In this document: positions 14,327 through 49,235 of the stretch, piece after piece | How positions within the stretch are numbered: the first letter of the stretch is position 1 | Layout: the number at the start of each line of letters is the position of its first letter | The notes under the pieces: generated by a model | The model's database searches: none | The model's input: only the letters and a program-made list of their open reading frames with translations | What the model was told of the DNA's origin: nothing | Source of the DNA: Acidobacteriota bacterium | GTDB lineage: Bacteria; Acidobacteriota; Vicinamibacteria; Vicinamibacterales; UBA2999 | Length of the DNA stretch: 64,000 nt | Reading direction: 5' to 3' | NCBI GenBank assembly: GCA_021730945.1 | Contig: JAKFYH010000037.1 | Span: 1 to 64,000, forward strand | Program-made: the position numbers and the translations under genes

Positions 14327-14462
14327 GGGGCCGCAGATGAACACACCAGGGCCACAGATGACGCAGATTACGCAGACATCCCCAGGGCCACAGATGACGC
14401 AGATGACGCAGATGACGCAGACATCCCCAGGGCCACAGATGACGCAGATGACGCAGAATCTC
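14327..14462 (-). repeat. CTGCGTCATCTG-family repeat array A1
   Basis: Three copies of a unit that on this strand reads CTGCGTCATCTGTGGCCCTGG are spaced 36 and 45 bases apart; the extra nine bases are one more CAGATGACG sub-unit. No gene covers it. With A2 it fills most of the 556-base gap between the cytochrome and the second creatininase; the 108 bases between the arrays show no gene. A1 and A2 are inverted relative to each other, so a long imperfect hairpin is possible. Confidence 0.8.
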
Positions 14463-14570
14463 TGACCAGTGGAATTTGACTTGCGCTCAGGTCGGCGAGT
14501 GCATGTCGGTGGAGTTTGTGCTGTATCCGTGTCGCGTGCCTCGTGTGTGTAGCTCCTCTTGTCCGCACTT

Positions 14571-14707
14571 AATCTGCGTAATCTGCGTCATCTGTGGCCC
14601 TGGTAGGTCTGCGTAGTCTGCGTCATCTGTGGCCCTGGTAGGTCTGCGTCATCTGCGTCATCTGTGGCCCTGGGGATGTCTGCGTCATCGGCGTTATCTG
14701 CGGCCCC
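14571..14707 (+). repeat. CTGCGTCATCTG-family repeat array A2
   Basis: Units TCTGCGTCATCTGTGGCCCTGG recur with GGCCCTGG at 14596, 14631 and 14666, an exact 35-base period, plus degenerate edges. The orientation is opposite to A1. It ends about 55 bases before the creatininase start and would be part of its upstream region. Confidence 0.8.
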
Positions 14708-19145: not shown

Positions 19146-19937
19146 ATGCCCCTGCCGGCGGACACCCACATTGGTTCGGTCAGCCTGCGGGTCACGGACC
19201 TCGAACGGTCGGTGTCCTTCTACCGCGACATCCTCGGCTTTCAGGAAATTTCTCGCGACGGCCGGACCTCGTGCCTGTCCGCCAACGGCGCCGATGCGCT
19301 GGTCGAGCTGCATGGCCAGCCCGGCGCGGTGGCGCGGCCACGCCGGAGCGCGGGGCTGTTTCACTTCGCCATTCTTGTGCCGTCGCGTGCGGCGCTGGGG
19401 CGATCGTTACGCCGGCTGGTGGACCGGCAGTGGCCCCTGTCCGGCGCGGCCGATCACCTGGTCAGCGAAGCCCTCTATCTCAACGACCCCGACGGACTTG
19501 GAATTGAGATCTATCGCGACCGGCCACGCGAGGGTTGGCGGCAGGCCAATGGTGAATTGGCCATGGCGACCGACCCCCTCGACTTGCCGAACGTGGCGGC
19601 CGAAGCCGGAGCGGAGTTGCCCTGGGCCGGCCTGGAATCGGCGACCGTGATTGGCCACATGCATCTGAACGTGGCCCGGCTCGAGGACGGGGAAGCGCTG
19701 TACTGCGGCGATATCGGTTTTGAGCCCACGGTGCGCGGCTATCCCGGCGCGCTGTTCGTGGCGGCCGGCGGCTATCACCATCACCTGGGCATGAACACCT
19801 GGCTGGGCGCCGGTGTGCCGCCGCCGCCCGACGATGCGGTCGGGCTGCGCGCGTTCAGCATTCACGGCCGCGGCATCGTGGGGCGCGAAGTGCTCGATCC
19901 AGCCACGGGCACCCTCGTGCGACTGGTCGGAGACTGA
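19146..19937 (+). CDS. VOC-family dioxygenase (CatE-like, two glyoxalase domains)
   Basis: 263 residues with two vicinal-oxygen-chelate modules, about 6-130 and 165-260. Metal-binding type strands are HIGSVSLRVTDLERSVSFYRDILGF, LFHFAILVP, DGLGIEIYRDRP and GHMHLNVARL, and HHLGMNTWLG is typical of the catechol-2,3-dioxygenase-like family (CatE/YfiE). The likely reaction is extradiol cleavage of a catechol, but the substrate cannot be predicted. It is followed six bases later by a small TPR-like gene and may share a transcript with the genes leading to formate dehydrogenase. Confidence 0.78.
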   Translation: MPLPADTHIGSVSLRVTDLERSVSFYRDILGFQEISRDGRTSCLSANGADALVELHGQPGAVARPRRSAGLFHFAILVPSRAALGRSLRRLVDRQWPLSGAADHLVSEALYLNDPDGLGIEIYRDRPREGWRQANGELAMATDPLDLPNVAAEAGAELPWAGLESATVIGHMHLNVARLEDGEALYCGDIGFEPTVRGYPGALFVAAGGYHHHLGMNTWLGAGVPPPPDDAVGLRAFSIHGRGIVGREVLDPATGTLVRLVGD

Positions 19938-19942
19938 GGCCG

Positions 19943-20515
19943 ATGGGGATGGTGGTCGCGGCGCTGCTGATGGTGTTGGCCCAGGATACCGGTCGCGACG
20001 TGGAACGCGTGGCGATGGACGGCTGGGTGGCGGCGCGCGCGCTGGCGCCACGCGGCGGCGCGCTCGAACTGCTGGGCCCCGTGAACGAGCATCTCAAGAC
20101 GCTCGATCGCCTGCCGGGACCAGCGGCCCGATACGCCGAGGTGGCCATCCGCGCCGCCGTCAGCGCGGCACAAGACGAGCGCGGCGAATTGGACGTGTTT
20201 CTCGCGCATGCGCGCGACCTGTCAGCCACCATGGCGCTGGCGGGCGCGGCGGCCCAGTGGCCCGTGCCGATCGACGAGCTGGAGGGCGAGTTGTGGCTCG
20301 AGGTCGACCGCTACGCCGACGCGCGCGACGCCTTTCGCCGCGCCACCCGGCTGCGCCCCACCCCCAATGCCCTGGTCGGCCTCGCACGGGCCAGCGATCG
20401 GCTCGGCGACCTGGTCGGTGCCTGCGCGGCCTACACCCAGGCCGCCTCGGCAGCCGGCCTGCCGGCAGCGGTCGCGATTGAGATTTCGTTGTACGCCCTG
20501 AAGTGCCGGCGGTGA
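19943..20515 (+). CDS. Hypothetical helical protein with TPR-like repeat
   Basis: 190 residues starting MGMVVAALLMVLAQ, a short hydrophobic N-terminus that may be a signal peptide. The C-terminal half has helix pairs that resemble tetratricopeptide repeats: ELEGELWLEVDRYADARDAFRRATRLRPTP and ALVGLARASDRLGDLVGACAAYTQA. The final segment ends ALKCRR. No specific function is evident. It lies between the VOC gene and a small gene in front of the formate dehydrogenase operon. Confidence 0.6.
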   Translation: MGMVVAALLMVLAQDTGRDVERVAMDGWVAARALAPRGGALELLGPVNEHLKTLDRLPGPAARYAEVAIRAAVSAAQDERGELDVFLAHARDLSATMALAGAAAQWPVPIDELEGELWLEVDRYADARDAFRRATRLRPTPNALVGLARASDRLGDLVGACAAYTQAASAAGLPAAVAIEISLYALKCRR

Positions 20516-20532
20516 GCAATGGCGGAGCATCG

Positions 20533-20784
20533 GTGACTGGCGCCTATCGCCCGGAGGTGATCGAGGAACTGGCGCGGCACGGGTTGGTGCCGCGCGCCGG
20601 CACTACGCCTGAGCGGTTGCGCGAGCAGGTCAACGACCTCTACCGGTTCGAGATCCGCAAGCTGCGCGACCGCTGCCGCGCCGGAGAATTCAGCACGCGT
20701 GAACTGCCGGGCCGGGTGGTCGAGCTGCGCCGGCGCTACCTGTTGTTGTCGATCCCCATCGCTCAGTGGGTCGTGCTACCTTAA
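20533..20784 (+). CDS. Small hypothetical protein preceding formate dehydrogenase
   Basis: 83 residues from a GTG at 20533 supported by GGAG at 20524-20527; a GTG at 20512 that overlaps the upstream stop (GTGA) is an alternative. The product is basic and helical (YRPEVIEELARHGL, DLYRFEIRKLRDRCRAGEF, ELRRRYLLLSIPIAQWVVLP). I do not recognise the family. It ends eight bases before the formate dehydrogenase catalytic gene, so it is probably in the same operon. Confidence 0.6.
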   Translation: MTGAYRPEVIEELARHGLVPRAGTTPERLREQVNDLYRFEIRKLRDRCRAGEFSTRELPGRVVELRRRYLLLSIPIAQWVVLP

Positions 20785-20792
20785 ACCTCACG

Positions 20793-22706
20793 ATGAGTCG
20801 GATGACACGCTTGGTCCATCCCCTCGTTCGTGACACCCGCGGAGGTCCGCTGCGGCAGGCCTCGTGGGACGAAGCGCTGGAGCGCGCGGCCACCGGGTTA
20901 GACGCCGTGCGGCAGACGCAGGGCGGCCAGGCGTTTGGCCTCTTCAGCTGCTCGAAGAGCACGAACGAGATGAATTACGCGGCGCAGAAGTTCGCGCGCG
21001 TGGTGATGGGCTCGAACAATCTCGACAGCTGCAACCGCACTTGACATGCCCCGAGCGTCGCCGGTCTGGCGGCGGTATTCGGCATGGGGGGTGGGACCAG
21101 CTCGTATCGGGAGATTGAAGAGACGGACTGCATTCTGCTCTGGGGCTCGAACGCCAGGGAGACGCACCCGATCTTCTTTCACCACCTGCTCGCGGGGCTG
21201 AAGCGAGGGGCGAAGCTCTATGCGATCGACCCGCGCCGCACCGCCTCGGCCCAGTGGGCCGACCTGTGGGCCGGCCTCGATGTCGGCACCGACATCGCGC
21301 TATCGAACACCATGGCTCGCGAAATCATCCACGCCGGCCTGGTCAACCGCGAGTTCATTGAACACGCCACCAGCGGTTTCGACACCTATGCGGCGATGGT
21401 CGAGCCCTGGACCCTCGAGCGCGGCGAGGCGGAAACCCGGGTGCCCGCGGCGGTCATCCGCGAGATGGCGCACGCCTACGCCACCGCCAAGCGGGCCATC
21501 ATCTGCTGGACGCTCGGCATCACCGAGCACCATACCGCCGTCCATAACGTGATGGCGCTCATCAACCTGTCGCTCTTGACCGGTCACGTCGGCCGCTGGG
21601 GCTCCGGGCTCAACCCGCTGCGCGGCCAGAACAATGTCCAGGGCGGCGGCGACATGGGCGCGCTGCCCGATCGATTGCCCGGGTTCCAGCATGTCGAGAA
21701 CGAGGCGGTGCGGGCGAAGTTCGATCGCTTCTACGGCGTCGCCGTGCCGCCAAAGAAGGGCTGGCACCTGTCAGCCATGTTCGACGCGATGGAGCGCGGA
21801 GACCTGCGCGCGCTGTATGTGATTGGCGAGAACCCGCTGCAGTCGGAGGCCGATCAGCACCGGGCCACCCGGTTGCTCGAATCGCTCGACCTGCTGGTCG
21901 TCCAGGACATCTTCCTCACCGAGACCGCGCAGCGCGCCGACATCGTGTTCCCGGCGGCCGCCGGCGCCTTTGAATCGGAAGGCACCGTTACCAACAGCGA
22001 ACGGCGCGTGCAGCGCGTGCGCAAGACCCTCAATCCACCGGGCGAAGCGCGCGAGGACCTGGCCATTATTTGCGACCTGGCCGGCCGGATGGGGCACCCG
22101 TGGGCCGCCGATGCCGAAGCGATCTGGAACGAAGTGCGGCAACTCTCGCCGGCGCACGCCGGCATGAGTTACGCGCGACTCGAGCAACTCTCCGGACTGC
22201 AGTGGCCGTGCTACGACGAGCAGCACCCCGGCGAGGTCTTCCTGCACGGCCGGCTGTGGGAGCGGCCCGTGCGCGGGCCGCGGGCGCCGTTCTCCCTGGT
22301 CAAACACGCGCTGCCGCTGGATCACCTGGACGACCAGTTTCCACTGCGCCTCACCACCGGGCGGCGCCTGGCCGAATACAACACCGGCGTCCAGACCGGA
22401 TCCTATGCCTCGCCGACGCGGCGCGGCGAAACCATCGACGTGTCGCCGGAAGATGCCGCCCGCATGGGCCTGGTGGAGGGGCAGTCGGTGCGCGTCACCT
22501 CGCGGCGCGGCGCCGTCGTCGCGCCGGTGCATATCGATCCGTCCCTGAGGCCGGGTCTTACCTTCATGACCTTCCACTTCCCGGATGACGTGGCTACCAA
22601 CCTGTTGACCAGCGATGCCACCGACCCGCTGGTCGGAACCGCGGAGTTCAAGGCCACAGCCATACGGATTGAGACGGGAGACGGGACTCCCGCCTCCCGG
22701 CACTAG
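20793..22706 (+). CDS. fdhA: Formate dehydrogenase alpha subunit, catalytic part, selenoprotein (split)
   Basis: 637 residues if the in-frame TGA at 21042-21044 is read as selenocysteine (residue 84). The context NNLDSCNRT-U-HAPSVAGL matches the active-site segment of molybdenum/tungsten formate dehydrogenases, in which Sec or Cys ligates the metal. Downstream come the MGD-binding domains: WGSNARETHPI, DPRRTASAQWADL, CWTLGITEHHTAVHNVMALINL, GWGSGLNPLRGQNNVQG-like, IGENPLQSEAD, and a C-terminal molydopterin dinucleotide-binding domain (RLTTGRRLAEYNTGVQT). The N-terminal CxxCxxxC [4Fe-4S] domain normally present in this chain is absent; it is encoded by the last gene of the operon. The ATG at 20793 has no clear Shine-Dalgarno sequence. 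Confidence 0.9.
21042..21071 (+). promoter_or_regulatory. Selenocysteine UGA codon with bacterial SECIS-like hairpin
   Basis: TGA (21042-21044) is followed by a hairpin with CGCC (21059-21062) and GGCG (21068-21071) arms and a GGTCT loop. The loop's GGU begins 18 nt after the UGA, the spacing I recall for Escherichia coli fdhF, which has the same GGUCU loop. This would recruit SelB with Sec-tRNA. The frame continues for 553 codons after the UGA, so it is not an ordinary stop. Confidence 0.85.
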
Positions 22707-22708
22707 CA

Positions 22709-24661
22709 ATGGATCTGCACATTGTCGGCGCCGAGGCGAACGCGGCTGAACGCGAGGCCGTGGATCAACTGTTGGGACCGCCGTCCACGGGATGGCACGG
22801 TGCCAGCCGCGACATCGAGCGCGACGGCCGTTCGGCGGCGGGCGGACGGCGGGTGTCCGGCGGTCGCGACCAACTGTTGCCGGCGTTGCACGCCGTCCAG
22901 GACGCCATGGGCTGGGTCAGTCATGGCGCCCTGAACTACATCTGCGCGCGGCTGTCGGTGCCGCCCGCCGAGGCGTGGGGCGTGGTCACCTTCTATCACC
23001 TGCTGGCGACCGCGCCGCGGCCGGCGGCCGTCGCGCACGTCTGCGACGACATCGCATGCCGGTTACACGGCGCCGAATCGTTGTGCGCCGACCTCGAGGC
23101 GCGCCTGGGGCACGCCGTGCATCGGTCACCGTGCCTGGGCCAGTGCGATCGCGGTTCGGCGGCCCTCATCACCAGGGCCGGGCCCGAGCCCGAGCGCTTC
23201 GTGATCGCACCGGCGACCGCCGGTGCCATCGTCGATGCGCTTTCGACGGATGCCCGCCCCGAATCCACGGCCCAACCGGTGGTCGATGCCGCGGCGGCCG
23301 GCGACAAGGGCGCGCGCATCGTCCGCCGCATCAACGTGGCCGATCCGTGCAGCCTCGACAGTTACCGTCACCACGGCGGGTATGCCGTGCTGAACAAGGC
23401 CATCGCCATCGGCGCGGCCGCCGTCATCGCCGAGGTGTCGGCGGCCAAGCTGCTCGGCCGCGGTGGCGCCGCCTTTCCGACCGGCCGCAAGTGGCAGGCC
23501 GTGGCCGAAGCGCCGGCGCAGCCGCACTACGTGGTGTGCAATGCCGATGAGTCCGAGCCCGGCACGTTCAAGGACCGCGTATTGATGGAGCAGGATCCAT
23601 TCGCGGTGGTCGAGGCCATGACCATCTGCGGCCTGGCGACCGGCAGCGCGCATGGGTTTCTCTATGTCAGGGGCGAGTATCCCGAGGCCGAGCGGGCGAT
23701 GGCGTCGGCCATCGCACAGGCGCGGGCGGCCGGCCTGCTAGGGCCCAGCGTGGCGGCGTCGGGCTTCGCCTTTGACATCGAGATCCGGCGCGGCGGCGGC
23801 GCCTACATCTGCGGCGAAGAGACCGCGTTGTTTAATTCGATTGAGGGCAAGCGTGGTGAGCCGCGCTCGAAGCCCCCGTTCCCCGCGCAAGTCGGCGTGT
23901 TCGGCCAGCCGACCGTGGTGAACAACGTGGAGACGCTGGTCAACGTGCTGGATCTGCTGGATGAGGGCGGCGCCGCCTGGGCGAAGACCGGCACGGCCGG
24001 GTCGAGCGGCACGCGATTATTCTGTCTGTCGGGCCACGTCGCCGTCCCTGGCTTGTACGAAATTGAATGCGGCCGGACGCTGCGGCAGGCCATTGCCCTG
24101 GCCGGCGGACTTCCCGCCGGGCGCGCCCTGCAAGCGGTCCTGCTCGGCGGGGCCGCAGGCACATTCGTGGGCCCGGATGCGCTCGACATGCCGTTGTCGT
24201 TCGAGGGCGCCCGGGCCGCCAACGCGACGCTGGGCTCCGGCGTGATCATGGTGTTCGACGACACCGCCAACCTGCACGACACGCTCGCGCGCATCGCCCA
24301 GTTCTTCCGCGACGAGTCGTGCGGCCAGTGCGTCCCCTGCCGCGTCGGGACCGTCCGCCAGGCCGAACTGCTGCACGTGCGATCTGCGTCATCTGTGTCA
24401 TCTGCGGCCCCGGCTTCGTCTGCGTCATCTGTGTCATCTGCGGCCCTGGCTTCGTCTGCGCAATCTGTGTCATCTGCGGCCCTGGCCGAGTCTGCGTCAT
24501 CTGTGTCATCTGCGGCCCTGGCCGAGTCATCGGTGTTGCTATCTGAGTTGGGCCTGGCCATGAAGGATGCGTCGATCTGCGGCCTCGGCCAGACCGCTGC
24601 ATCGGCCATCGAATCGGCGTTTGCCAACATCGCATCGTTGAAGGGCAGCGAGCCATCATGA
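22709..24661 (+). CDS. Formate dehydrogenase diaphorase subunit, NuoE-NuoF (gamma-beta) fusion
   Basis: 650 residues. Residues about 50-175 are a NuoE/FdsG-like thioredoxin-fold [2Fe-2S] domain with ligands C112, C117, C142 and C146 (CDDIAC and CLGQC). From about 200 the chain is NuoF/FdsB-like: LLGRGGAAFPTGRKW and CNADESEPGTFKDR bind FMN and NADH, followed by an SLBB domain and the [4Fe-4S] site ESCGQCVPC, completed by SICGLGQ. It would pass electrons from formate to NAD+. A 144-base repeat array encodes four 12-residue SASSVSSAALAS-type units (residues 559-606) between CGQC and SICGLGQ. The gene begins two bases after the catalytic gene and overlaps the next gene by ATGA. Confidence 0.88.
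   Translation: MDLHIVGAEANAAEREAVDQLLGPPSTGWHGASRDIERDGRSAAGGRRVSGGRDQLLPALHAVQDAMGWVSHGALNYICARLSVPPAEAWGVVTFYHLLATAPRPAAVAHVCDDIACRLHGAESLCADLEARLGHAVHRSPCLGQCDRGSAALITRAGPEPERFVIAPATAGAIVDALSTDARPESTAQPVVDAAAAGDKGARIVRRINVADPCSLDSYRHHGGYAVLNKAIAIGAAAVIAEVSAAKLLGRGGAAFPTGRKWQAVAEAPAQPHYVVCNADESEPGTFKDRVLMEQDPFAVVEAMTICGLATGSAHGFLYVRGEYPEAERAMASAIAQARAAGLLGPSVAASGFAFDIEIRRGGGAYICGEETALFNSIEGKRGEPRSKPPFPAQVGVFGQPTVVNNVETLVNVLDLLDEGGAAWAKTGTAGSSGTRLFCLSGHVAVPGLYEIECGRTLRQAIALAGGLPAGRALQAVLLGGAAGTFVGPDALDMPLSFEGARAANATLGSGVIMVFDDTANLHDTLARIAQFFRDESCGQCVPCRVGTVRQAELLHVRSASSVSSAAPASSASSVSSAALASSAQSVSSAALAESASSVSSAALAESSVLLSELGLAMKDASICGLGQTAASAIESAFANIASLKGSEPS
24383..24526 (+). repeat. CTGCGTCATCTG-family array A3, in frame inside the diaphorase gene
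   Basis: Four tandem 36-base units beginning TCTGCGTCATCTGTGTCATC and coding SASSVSSAAPAS, SASSVSSAALAS, SAQSVSSAALAE and SASSVSSAALAE. The unit is exactly 12 codons, whereas the intergenic arrays A2 and A5 have 35-base periods. Confidence 0.88.
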
Positions 24662-25782
24662 GCCACGACGACATCGCGTTCCATTTGCCGCCGGCTCCGC
24701 GCGACATTCCGGCAGCGCCGGCCGGGCCGGCCCCGACGATGGTGCCGTTGACCATTGATGGCCGGGCGGTGGAGGTGCCGTCAGGTGCGACCTTGATCGA
24801 CGCCTGCGCCGCGCTCGACATCACGGTGCCCACCCTCTGCTACCTCAAGACCCTCACGCCGGTGAACGCCTGCCGCATGTGCGTGGTCGAAGTCGAGGGC
24901 GCTCGCGTGCTCGCGCCGGCCTGCTCGCGCCAAGTCGAGCCCGGCATGGTGGTAAAGACCCGCTCCCCGCGCGTCAACCTCTCCCGCAAGATGGTCCTGG
25001 AGTTGCTGGGCTCGTCGGTCGACCTGAGCACCGCACCCGGCCTGGCCGAGATGATGGCGGAGTACGACGCCCGCCCGGAGCGATTCCACCAGTCCCTGAC
25101 CTCTGCGCCATCGGTGTCATCTGCGGCCCTGGCGTCCGAGTCTGCGTCATCTGCGTCATCTGCGGCCCTGGGTGAGTCTGCGTCATCTGCGGCCCTGGGT
25201 GACTCTGCGTCATCTGCGTCATCTGTGGCCCTGGGTGACTCTGCGTCATCTGCGTCATCTGTGGCCCTGGCTTCGTCCGCGTCATCTGCGTCCCTGGCCG
25301 CCGGATCTGTGTCGGTGGCATCTGTGGCCCAACCGGTCAAGGTCGACAACGACCTCTACGTCCGCGACTACGGCAAATGCATTCTGTGTTACAAGTGCGT
25401 CGAAGCCTGCGGCACCGACGCGCAGCACACCTTCGCCATCGCCGTCGCCGGCCGCGGATTCAATGCGCACATCTCGACCGAGCTGGACGTGCCGCTGCCG
25501 GATTCGGCCTGCGTGTACTGCGGCAATTGCATTGCGGTGTGCCCGACCGGCGCGTTGATGGCTACGCCGGAGTTCGAGCTCAGGAAGGCGGGGGAGTGGC
25601 GGCCCGAGACCCAGGCCGTGACCGATACCATCTGTCCATACTGTGGCGTCGGCTGCACGCTCACCGTGCATGTGCAGGATCAGCAGATTGTGAAGGTGAC
25701 GTCGCCGTTCGACAACGACGTCACCCGCGGCAATTTGTGTGTCAAGGGCCGGTTCGGTTTCGAGTACGTCAACCGCACCTAG
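24658..25782 (+). CDS. fdhA: Formate dehydrogenase alpha subunit, N-terminal Fe-S part (split)
   Basis: 374 residues. A NuoG-like [2Fe-2S] domain has ligands C61, C72, C75 and C89. After a repeat-coded linker come two [4Fe-4S] ferredoxin motifs, CILCYKCVEACG at about 241-252 and CVYCGNCIAVCPTG at about 285-298. It ends with the [4Fe-4S] domain that opens every MGD-binding formate dehydrogenase: CPYCGVGC (326-333) and GNLCVKGRFGFEYVNRT. The chain stops there, and the sequence that would normally continue (RPLIR...ASWDEAL) is found at the N-terminus of the first gene of the operon (HPLVRDTRGGPLRQASWDEAL). The His-Cys cluster of full-length NuoG-like chains is not seen. Confidence 0.88.
   Translation: MSHDDIAFHLPPAPRDIPAAPAGPAPTMVPLTIDGRAVEVPSGATLIDACAALDITVPTLCYLKTLTPVNACRMCVVEVEGARVLAPACSRQVEPGMVVKTRSPRVNLSRKMVLELLGSSVDLSTAPGLAEMMAEYDARPERFHQSLTSAPSVSSAALASESASSASSAALGESASSAALGDSASSASSVALGDSASSASSVALASSASSASLAAGSVSVASVAQPVKVDNDLYVRDYGKCILCYKCVEACGTDAQHTFAIAVAGRGFNAHISTELDVPLPDSACVYCGNCIAVCPTGALMATPEFELRKAGEWRPETQAVTDTICPYCGVGCTLTVHVQDQQIVKVTSPFDNDVTRGNLCVKGRFGFEYVNRT
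25102..25329 (+). repeat. CTGCGTCATCTG-family array A4, in frame inside formate dehydrogenase N-part
   Basis: 228 bases (76 codons) of degenerate units coding SASSASSAALGE, SASSAALGD, SASSASSVALGD and SASSASSVALAS. One unit is nine codons instead of twelve, again a multiple of three. It forms a Ser/Ala linker at residues 149-224 between the [2Fe-2S] domain and the ferredoxin motifs. Confidence 0.88.
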
Positions 25783-49099: not shown

Positions 49100-49130
49100 A
49101 CACCGATGCTGTCTTCAGGGGCCGCAGCTC

Positions 49131-49235
49131 ACGGGGCCGCAGATGACACAGATGACGCAGATGTCACGGGGCCGCAGATGACACAGATGACGCAGATGTC
49201 ACGGGGCCACAGATGACGCAGATGACGCAGATACC
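49131..49235 (-). repeat. CTGCGTCATCTG-family array A5
   Basis: Three copies of a 35-base unit (on the + strand it starts ACGGGGCCGCAGATGACACA) begin at 49131, 49166 and 49201; a further partial copy lies at about 49118-49130. The third copy overlaps the start of the RidA gene. Confidence 0.85.

Follow-up and report, generated by a model that had tools for sequence, protein, structure and literature searches.

Among the closest described relatives of the locus reported here, a formate dehydrogenase (FDH) operon in a 64,000-nucleotide stretch of contig JAKFYH010000037.1 from an Acidobacteriota bacterium (this whole stretch is called the window below), are enzymes with a one-chain alpha subunit. 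In Methylorubrum extorquens FDH1 (7vw6, 8j83) alpha is a single chain of 989 amino acids (aa) with the same kind of parts as the alpha pieces found here, and its 572-aa beta chain (7e5z_B), which we take to be a NuoE-NuoF fusion, is matched by the diaphorase gene of the window. The NAD+-linked FdsABGD complex of Rhodobacter capsulatus (6tg9) likewise has a one-chain alpha, FdsA, and keeps FdsB and FdsG as separate proteins. Escherichia coli FDH-H (FdhF; 1aa6, 1fdi), which has selenocysteine (Sec) at the metal, is one chain with no NADH part. A catalytic subunit that binds bis-molybdopterin guanine dinucleotide (bis-MGD) and extends over two chains occurs in a relative, the formylmethanofuran dehydrogenase Fwd/Fmd (FwdB and FwdD), in which the separate chain is the C-terminal part. 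According to the accessible part of one source, FDHs share an active-site histidine and arginine, and in Methanothermobacter wolfeii the C-terminus of FdsA is replaced by an additional subunit (PMC7171172). A planctomycete, P1, carries a Sec-encoding fdhA in an operon with nuoEF, as does the locus in the window; the accessible part of that report describes this operon as shared only with Plesiocystis pacifica and mentions no split alpha (PMC4807772).

In the window the alpha subunit is divided between two genes at opposite ends of the operon and, unlike in Fwd/Fmd, the separate part is the N-terminal Fe4S4 domain together with the electron wire. Three tightly packed genes lie on the + strand at 20793-25782, in the order aC-EF-aN. 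The first, aC (20793-22706), encodes the catalytic part of FdhA, with the bis-MGD-binding domains and a Sec residue and without the Fe4S4 domain; EF (22709-24661) encodes a fusion of NuoE-like and NuoF-like parts, the NADH/flavin mononucleotide (FMN) diaphorase; and aN (24658-25782) encodes the electron-wire part of FdhA (Fer2, two 4Fe-4S and the Molybdop_Fe4S4 domain). The end of aC (22706) and the start of EF (22709) nearly abut, and aN begins in the last codons of EF, with ATGA (24658-24661) shared by start and stop. At aC, plain open reading frame (ORF) calling recovers just two fragments, one of 92 aa (20766-21044) and one of 540 aa beginning at the ATG at 21084; the start ATG assigned to aC is common to three related loci (L044-L046). 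We consider it probable, at roughly 0.86, that the operon encodes a cytoplasmic, NAD+-linked, Mo/W-bis-MGD, selenocysteine FDH whose alpha subunit is made as two chains. An earlier note on this DNA had given the same coordinates and gene order (alpha-C, gamma-beta fusion, alpha-N), both of which were confirmed, and had called the alpha subunit circularly permuted. That description holds for the operon, whose order is rotated, and fails for the protein: circular permutation at the protein level was ruled out, as there are three separate reading frames instead of one swapped chain.

Domain searches place the cut in alpha closely. Pfam finds Molybdopterin and Molydop_binding only on aC; 2Fe-2S_thioredx, Complex1_51K, SLBB and NADH_4Fe-4S (first part) on EF; and Fer2_4, Fer4 types and Molybdop_Fe4S4 on aN. 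The alpha domain set (Molybdopterin, dinucleotide-binding, N-terminal Fe4S4) is complete, but over two chains, and the Pfam and NCBIfam content supports both an FDH operon and a gamma-beta fusion, with NuoE and NuoF domains in one chain. Positions 1-50 of the NCBIfam Fdh-alpha model TIGR01591 are covered by aN (50.9 bits) and positions 49-672 by aC, for which it is the best curated model (633.9 bits; runner-up 407.9); the best-scoring curated models for aN are hydrogenase or NuoG. On R. capsulatus FdsA (6tg9_A), aC matches residues 306-936 and aN extends to 303 as a single sequence or covers 14-305 as a profile, so that the two fragments are complementary and tile FdsA 14-936. The cut falls just behind the Fe4S4 domain. 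This domain, with its CPYCGVGC motif (25615-25773, + strand), is the expected holder of the 4Fe-4S cluster beside the Mo site, and the aN stop stands directly behind GRFGFEYVNRT.

The conserved residues are divided in the same way. In alignment A1 (13 sequences), position 84 of aC (the Sec codon), His85, Arg277 (codon 21621-21623, in PLRGQNNVQG) and the R-G-Q motif are invariant; Arg277 is taken as the conserved active-site arginine, equated by motif. In alignment A3 (17 sequences), the Fe4S4-domain cysteines of aN and its Lys363 (codon 25744-25746) are invariant. The proposal that the CPYCGVGC cluster sits on another polypeptide than the Sec/Mo site is borne out by the domain content, and the lysine is likewise on aN. 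Among 13 one-chain relatives with both parts, the aN- and aC-matched parts meet within about five codons in eight, while in the other five (L064-L068) the aC match begins 20 residues in.

The arrangement is widely conserved. Among 60 genomes (that of the window and 59 relatives), close aC relatives with the TGA were detected, and 15 of these loci were retrieved; aC-EF-aN stand on one strand in all 13 complete loci and the remaining two run into contig ends. The aC of 12 aligned relatives is 64-89% identical to that of the window. In a 297-genome sample of the phylum (window genome included; cut at E 1e-200), 22 genomes had the high-scoring type (939 to 1308 bits) and three more scored 670-694 bits with full-length open frames. 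A scan of a collection with one genome for each of 84,980 species, using the patterns NN[IL]DSCNR and [IL]CWTLGIT, yielded at least 585 relatives, of which the best 80 loci were analysed: 62 show the whole order, 11 are cut off (nine by a contig end; L124 and L166 by the end of the stretch examined) and seven have aC only. In none of these 80 is aN joined in front of aC, a count that gives no estimate of the frequency of one-chain alphas since the scan patterns favour the split clade. A continuous alpha chain running from the Fe4S4 domain to the cofactor domains is absent from the window, from all 13 complete related loci and from all 62 complete collection loci, where the aN stop lies 1 to 56 residues past the last matched position. 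E and F are fused in 73 of the 73 collection loci with both domains.

By record name, the 62 complete loci come from Acidobacteriota (21), Chloroflexota (15), Actinomycetota (11), Planctomycetota (3), Rokuibacteriota (2), Vulcanimicrobiota (2), Dormiibacterota, Gemmatimonadota and Thermomicrobiota (one each), with five unassigned. The split is thus the normal layout in a clade that spans at least nine named phyla, and not a local event. Phylum assignments may err, as nearly all carriers are metagenome bins; a named strain among them is Aquisphaera insulae JC669 (L107). Plasmid records gave 1469 with a match, all below 60% identity, and no sign of the split type. The earlier note had named two findings that would refute it, and neither turned up: the gene order is kept in other genomes, and no full-length alpha of the NAD-FDH type, of which these genes could be duplicate fragments, was found among the genome's other five PF00384 loci. 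These comprise a NapA (above cut-off), two proteins that resemble NuoG and QrcB but miss the respective cut-offs, and two oxidoreductases without assignment, whose scores are far under the cut-off for Fdh-alpha.

On this basis the enzyme would work as follows. The aC chain would hold the bis-MGD site with Sec84, His85 and Arg277; aN would supply a wire of 2Fe-2S and 4Fe-4S clusters plus the Fe4S4 domain; and EF, with its NuoE- and NuoF-type domains, would carry FMN and the NADH site. By docking on aC, aN would complete the active site, and formate oxidised at aC would send electrons to the cluster on aN, along aN and into EF, where NAD+ would be reduced. In one-chain enzymes it is the Fe4S4 domain that brings a 4Fe-4S cluster and a lysine up to the cofactor; with Sec84, His85 and Arg277 on aC and the cysteines and Lys363 on aN, the first electron step should cross between chains. 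By motif, we take Lys363 to correspond to Lys44 of E. coli FDH-H. That enzyme depends for its activity on the conserved lysine close to cluster and cofactor: in the accessible part of the report, only the K44R variant kept any, at 7.1% (PMC12176258). A NuoE-/NuoF-like diaphorase is encoded with alpha, as in NAD+-dependent FDHs of the FdsABG/FDH1 type; NAD+ is the predicted acceptor of the split enzyme, and co-assembly of aN and aC, with docking of the two chains, is likewise predicted.

A structural model of aC (13 sequences; mean predicted local distance difference test score (pLDDT) 70.8, predicted template-modelling score 0.70) is consistent with this arrangement. As modelled, aC fits one-chain FDHs from just behind the Fe4S4 domain to near the C-terminus: its best structural match is 8j83_A of M. 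extorquens FDH1 (residues 341-981; Z 38.8, root-mean-square deviation (rmsd) 3.4, 590 aligned), with 1fdi 56-697 (Z 37.4, rmsd 3.5, 596 aligned) and 6tg9_A 305-943 (Z 31.0, rmsd 3.5, 591 aligned) also fitted. More speculatively, and we think this unlikely, the cut may serve a purpose: aC might be made with an open cofactor site, loaded with bis-MGD, sulfurated by FdhD and then reversibly capped by the Fe4S4 domain of aN; capping might protect the Sec site or switch electron flow, and the rotated gene order, in which the Sec-containing piece comes first and the cap last, might set the order of assembly.

The only alternative with some life in it is that aC acts alone or with another iron-sulfur partner while EF-aN forms a separate diaphorase of the HoxFUE kind, because aC can drift away from EF-aN. 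The gap between aC and EF exceeds 1 kb in nine of 73 loci, and the two gaps that were read hold, by eye, unrelated genes; the seven collection loci with aC only include four with about 7 kb of sequence downstream; and the HoxU model picks up two stretches of aN (136.5 bits). However, the genome of every aC-only locus has a split-type aN at another site; these aN are 64-80% identical to the query aN, follow an F domain and end in a stop. A Mo-type Fe4S4 domain is present on aN in the 62 complete loci (it is a criterion of completeness), no locus with room for this domain is without it, and aN ends just behind it in all 62. The cofactor-facing lysine is kept in 17 of 17 aligned aN sequences, and aC lacks the very domain that is present in one-chain relatives. 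We therefore regard a lone aC as unlikely.

Somewhat less likely still is a molybdoenzyme of the same architecture acting on a substrate other than formate. Function is assigned here by homology only, and in the structural comparison nitrate reductase (Nap) structures tie with FDHs (2nap: Z 38.7, rmsd 3.3, 574 aligned). Against this, Fdh-alpha is by far the best curated model for aC, Sec-His and R-G-Q are invariant in the 13 aligned sequences, and the best solved chains by sequence are FDHs.

The TGA at 21042-21044 (+ strand) is read as Sec at residue 84 of aC and is followed by His85. This TGA is kept in 80 of the 80 best collection loci, with the reading frame conserved on both sides. Shortly behind it, at 21057-21073 (+ strand), lies a hairpin resembling a selenocysteine insertion sequence (SECIS), with six pairs and a GGUCU loop (21063-21067) that we take to resemble the E. 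coli fdhF loop. Over 47 sequences, hand-picked for spread from 94, 99.3% of stem cells are paired, a value reached by none of 500 shuffles, and two pairs have changes on both sides (as high in eight of 500 shuffles); as the stem was picked from the same sequences and is sited in coding DNA, this conservation is support and not proof. An Rfam search of the window at the gathering threshold gave no match. The genome encodes SelA (522 bits), SelB (308 bits), a tRNA-Sec with anticodon TCA, and FdhD. By the in-frame TGA, the hairpin, SelA, SelB and tRNA-Sec, aC qualifies as a bacterial selenoprotein. Were the TGA a true stop, the protein would begin at the ATG at 21084, and mechanical ORF calling yields exactly this 540-aa product; it would, however, be without a metal ligand, and given the conserved TGA, frame and hairpin and the selenocysteine genes we consider a true stop very improbable. 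Decayed or duplicated alpha fragments or an assembly artefact are equally improbable: gene splits in draft genomes are frequently artefactual, repeat arrays of a kind that can mislead assembly occur in two of the ORFs and a few relatives have frame breaks, but an assembly fault and relic fragments are ruled out by the same order and the same cut in all 13 complete related loci and 62 of the 80 collection loci, along with the identity of aC among the relatives and the lack of another alpha found in the genome.

Phylogenetic trees are consistent with a single origin of the split type. They hold 57 split and 13 one-chain rows, that is 70 of the 74 rows with an aC match (L178, L180, L069 and L070, which have no aN, are out), and include 30 of the 80 collection loci; L055, L057 and L058, which have frame breaks or reach contig ends, were left out. 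A single branch separates the split rows from the others, with Shimodaira-Hasegawa-like approximate likelihood ratio test support of 100 (aC) and 95 (aN), on a long stem in the aC tree. Distances among the 57 split rows in FastTree trees of aC and aN correlate at 0.50, a value reached in none of 999 label permutations. EF precedes alpha in all nine of the 15 one-chain loci in which EF was found, which bears out the gamma-beta-alpha order that the earlier note had called usual, and aC-EF-aN is thus the usual order rotated. The split operon probably has a single, ancient origin in an EF-alpha operon whose alpha underwent fission, with the C-terminal part moving to the first position. Tandem duplication followed by loss of the outer halves, the route suggested earlier, is only one possible way to the rotated order; moving one half is another. 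Within a single genus, the split type occurs in G003, G005, G006 and G007 and a one-chain alpha with EF in front in G001, G002, G004 and G008; G006 also holds a one-chain relative, 39% identical to aC. There the two types appear as if replacing each other (L044-L046 and L055 split, L065-L068 one-chain).

A further feature of FdsA is no guide to the split. Cluster A4 of R. capsulatus (His117, Cys121, Cys124 and Cys130) lies at the dimer interface, according to the accessible text of PMC7171172. Its pattern, H-x3-C-x2-C-x4-6-C, is absent from all 57 split aN (L177 has its later linker out of frame) and occurs in five of 13 one-chain relatives, by eye as a true site in L063 only, so that its absence is no mark of the split.

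Several observations count against the enzyme as proposed. The aC score falls just below the curated TIGR01591 cut-off of 666.25 bits, as expected of a piece. The AlphaFold model of aN is poor (mean pLDDT 50.9). In the window alone the SECIS region folds no better than shuffles (z -0.47, with the fold begun at the second base of the TGA), and in a slide control a shift of +3 leaves 86.2% of cells paired, with a higher number of both-sided cells than in the stem (11 vs 6) though fewer both-sided pairs (1 vs 2); the remaining five shifts pair 14.9 to 67.0%. The aN tree carries a long-branch warning and has 148 columns only, and the correlation of aC and aN distances, which fits co-inheritance, would also be given by shared ancestry without contact. 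The reading frame is broken in some draft loci (in aC for L055 and L057, in EF for L045).

Two of the genes contain repeats. In-frame arrays of a 36-base repeat, belonging to a genome-wide family, lie in the EF linker (24382-24522) and the aN linker (25101-25297), both on the + strand, as SSASSVSSAALA-like stretches; the relatives shown have shorter or other stretches at these places. The interspersed repeat (TCATCTGYGTCATCTGYGGCCC) has 249 copies in the genome with at most two mismatches, vs 0 for the reversed control, and 21 copies in the window with at most three, including at 14349-14706 and 49129-49232. Other simple repeats, RDPGSGIRDPGSG and EQGAGNGEQGAG, occur in the EF linker and C-terminus of L045, where the reading frame is lost, and at the end of aN in L051. 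Such sites thus seem open to differing repeat families. Many split aN (L095, L103, L110, L114 and others) have a His-rich linker, e.g. GHHHAPDG, between the Fer2 and 4Fe-4S domains, possibly for metal handling or as a mere linker.

Just 5' of aC, a 93-aa ORF of unknown family (20503-20784, + strand) is a possible extra operon member in the window's own group only. A Pfam search of it gave no match, so that no FdsD is seen there. Of 95 loci searched, 13 have a match at 62-82% identity; two of these (L089 and L090) duplicate L045 and L048, which leaves 11 distinct loci, and all belong to the window's own group. Further upstream on the same strand (19146-20515) lie a glyoxalase-fold gene and a tetratricopeptide repeat gene, which are found again in some of the related loci.

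No description of a split FdhA with this gene order was found in open-access full texts, a coverage that leaves subscription papers and preprints mostly outside, and none appears in the accessible parts of PMC3750248, PMC7325909, PMC5736913 and PMC8808070. The split FDH is apparently a real, undescribed version of a well-known enzyme: the same chemistry is expected, with a new division of the active site among chains that has been kept over many phyla. In the one-chain relatives seen here the Mo/W site and the electron-accepting cluster are on one chain, whereas the widespread split clade seems to form this contact across two proteins. Genetics and biochemistry could then take cofactor loading, capping and electron exit apart. 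Plain ORF calling cuts aC short at the Sec codon, and the N-terminal half stands at the far end of the operon and scores as hydrogenase or NuoG, which may explain how these genes have escaped notice. With Acidobacteriota, Chloroflexota and Actinomycetota among the carriers, counts of formate use in such genomes may be too low.

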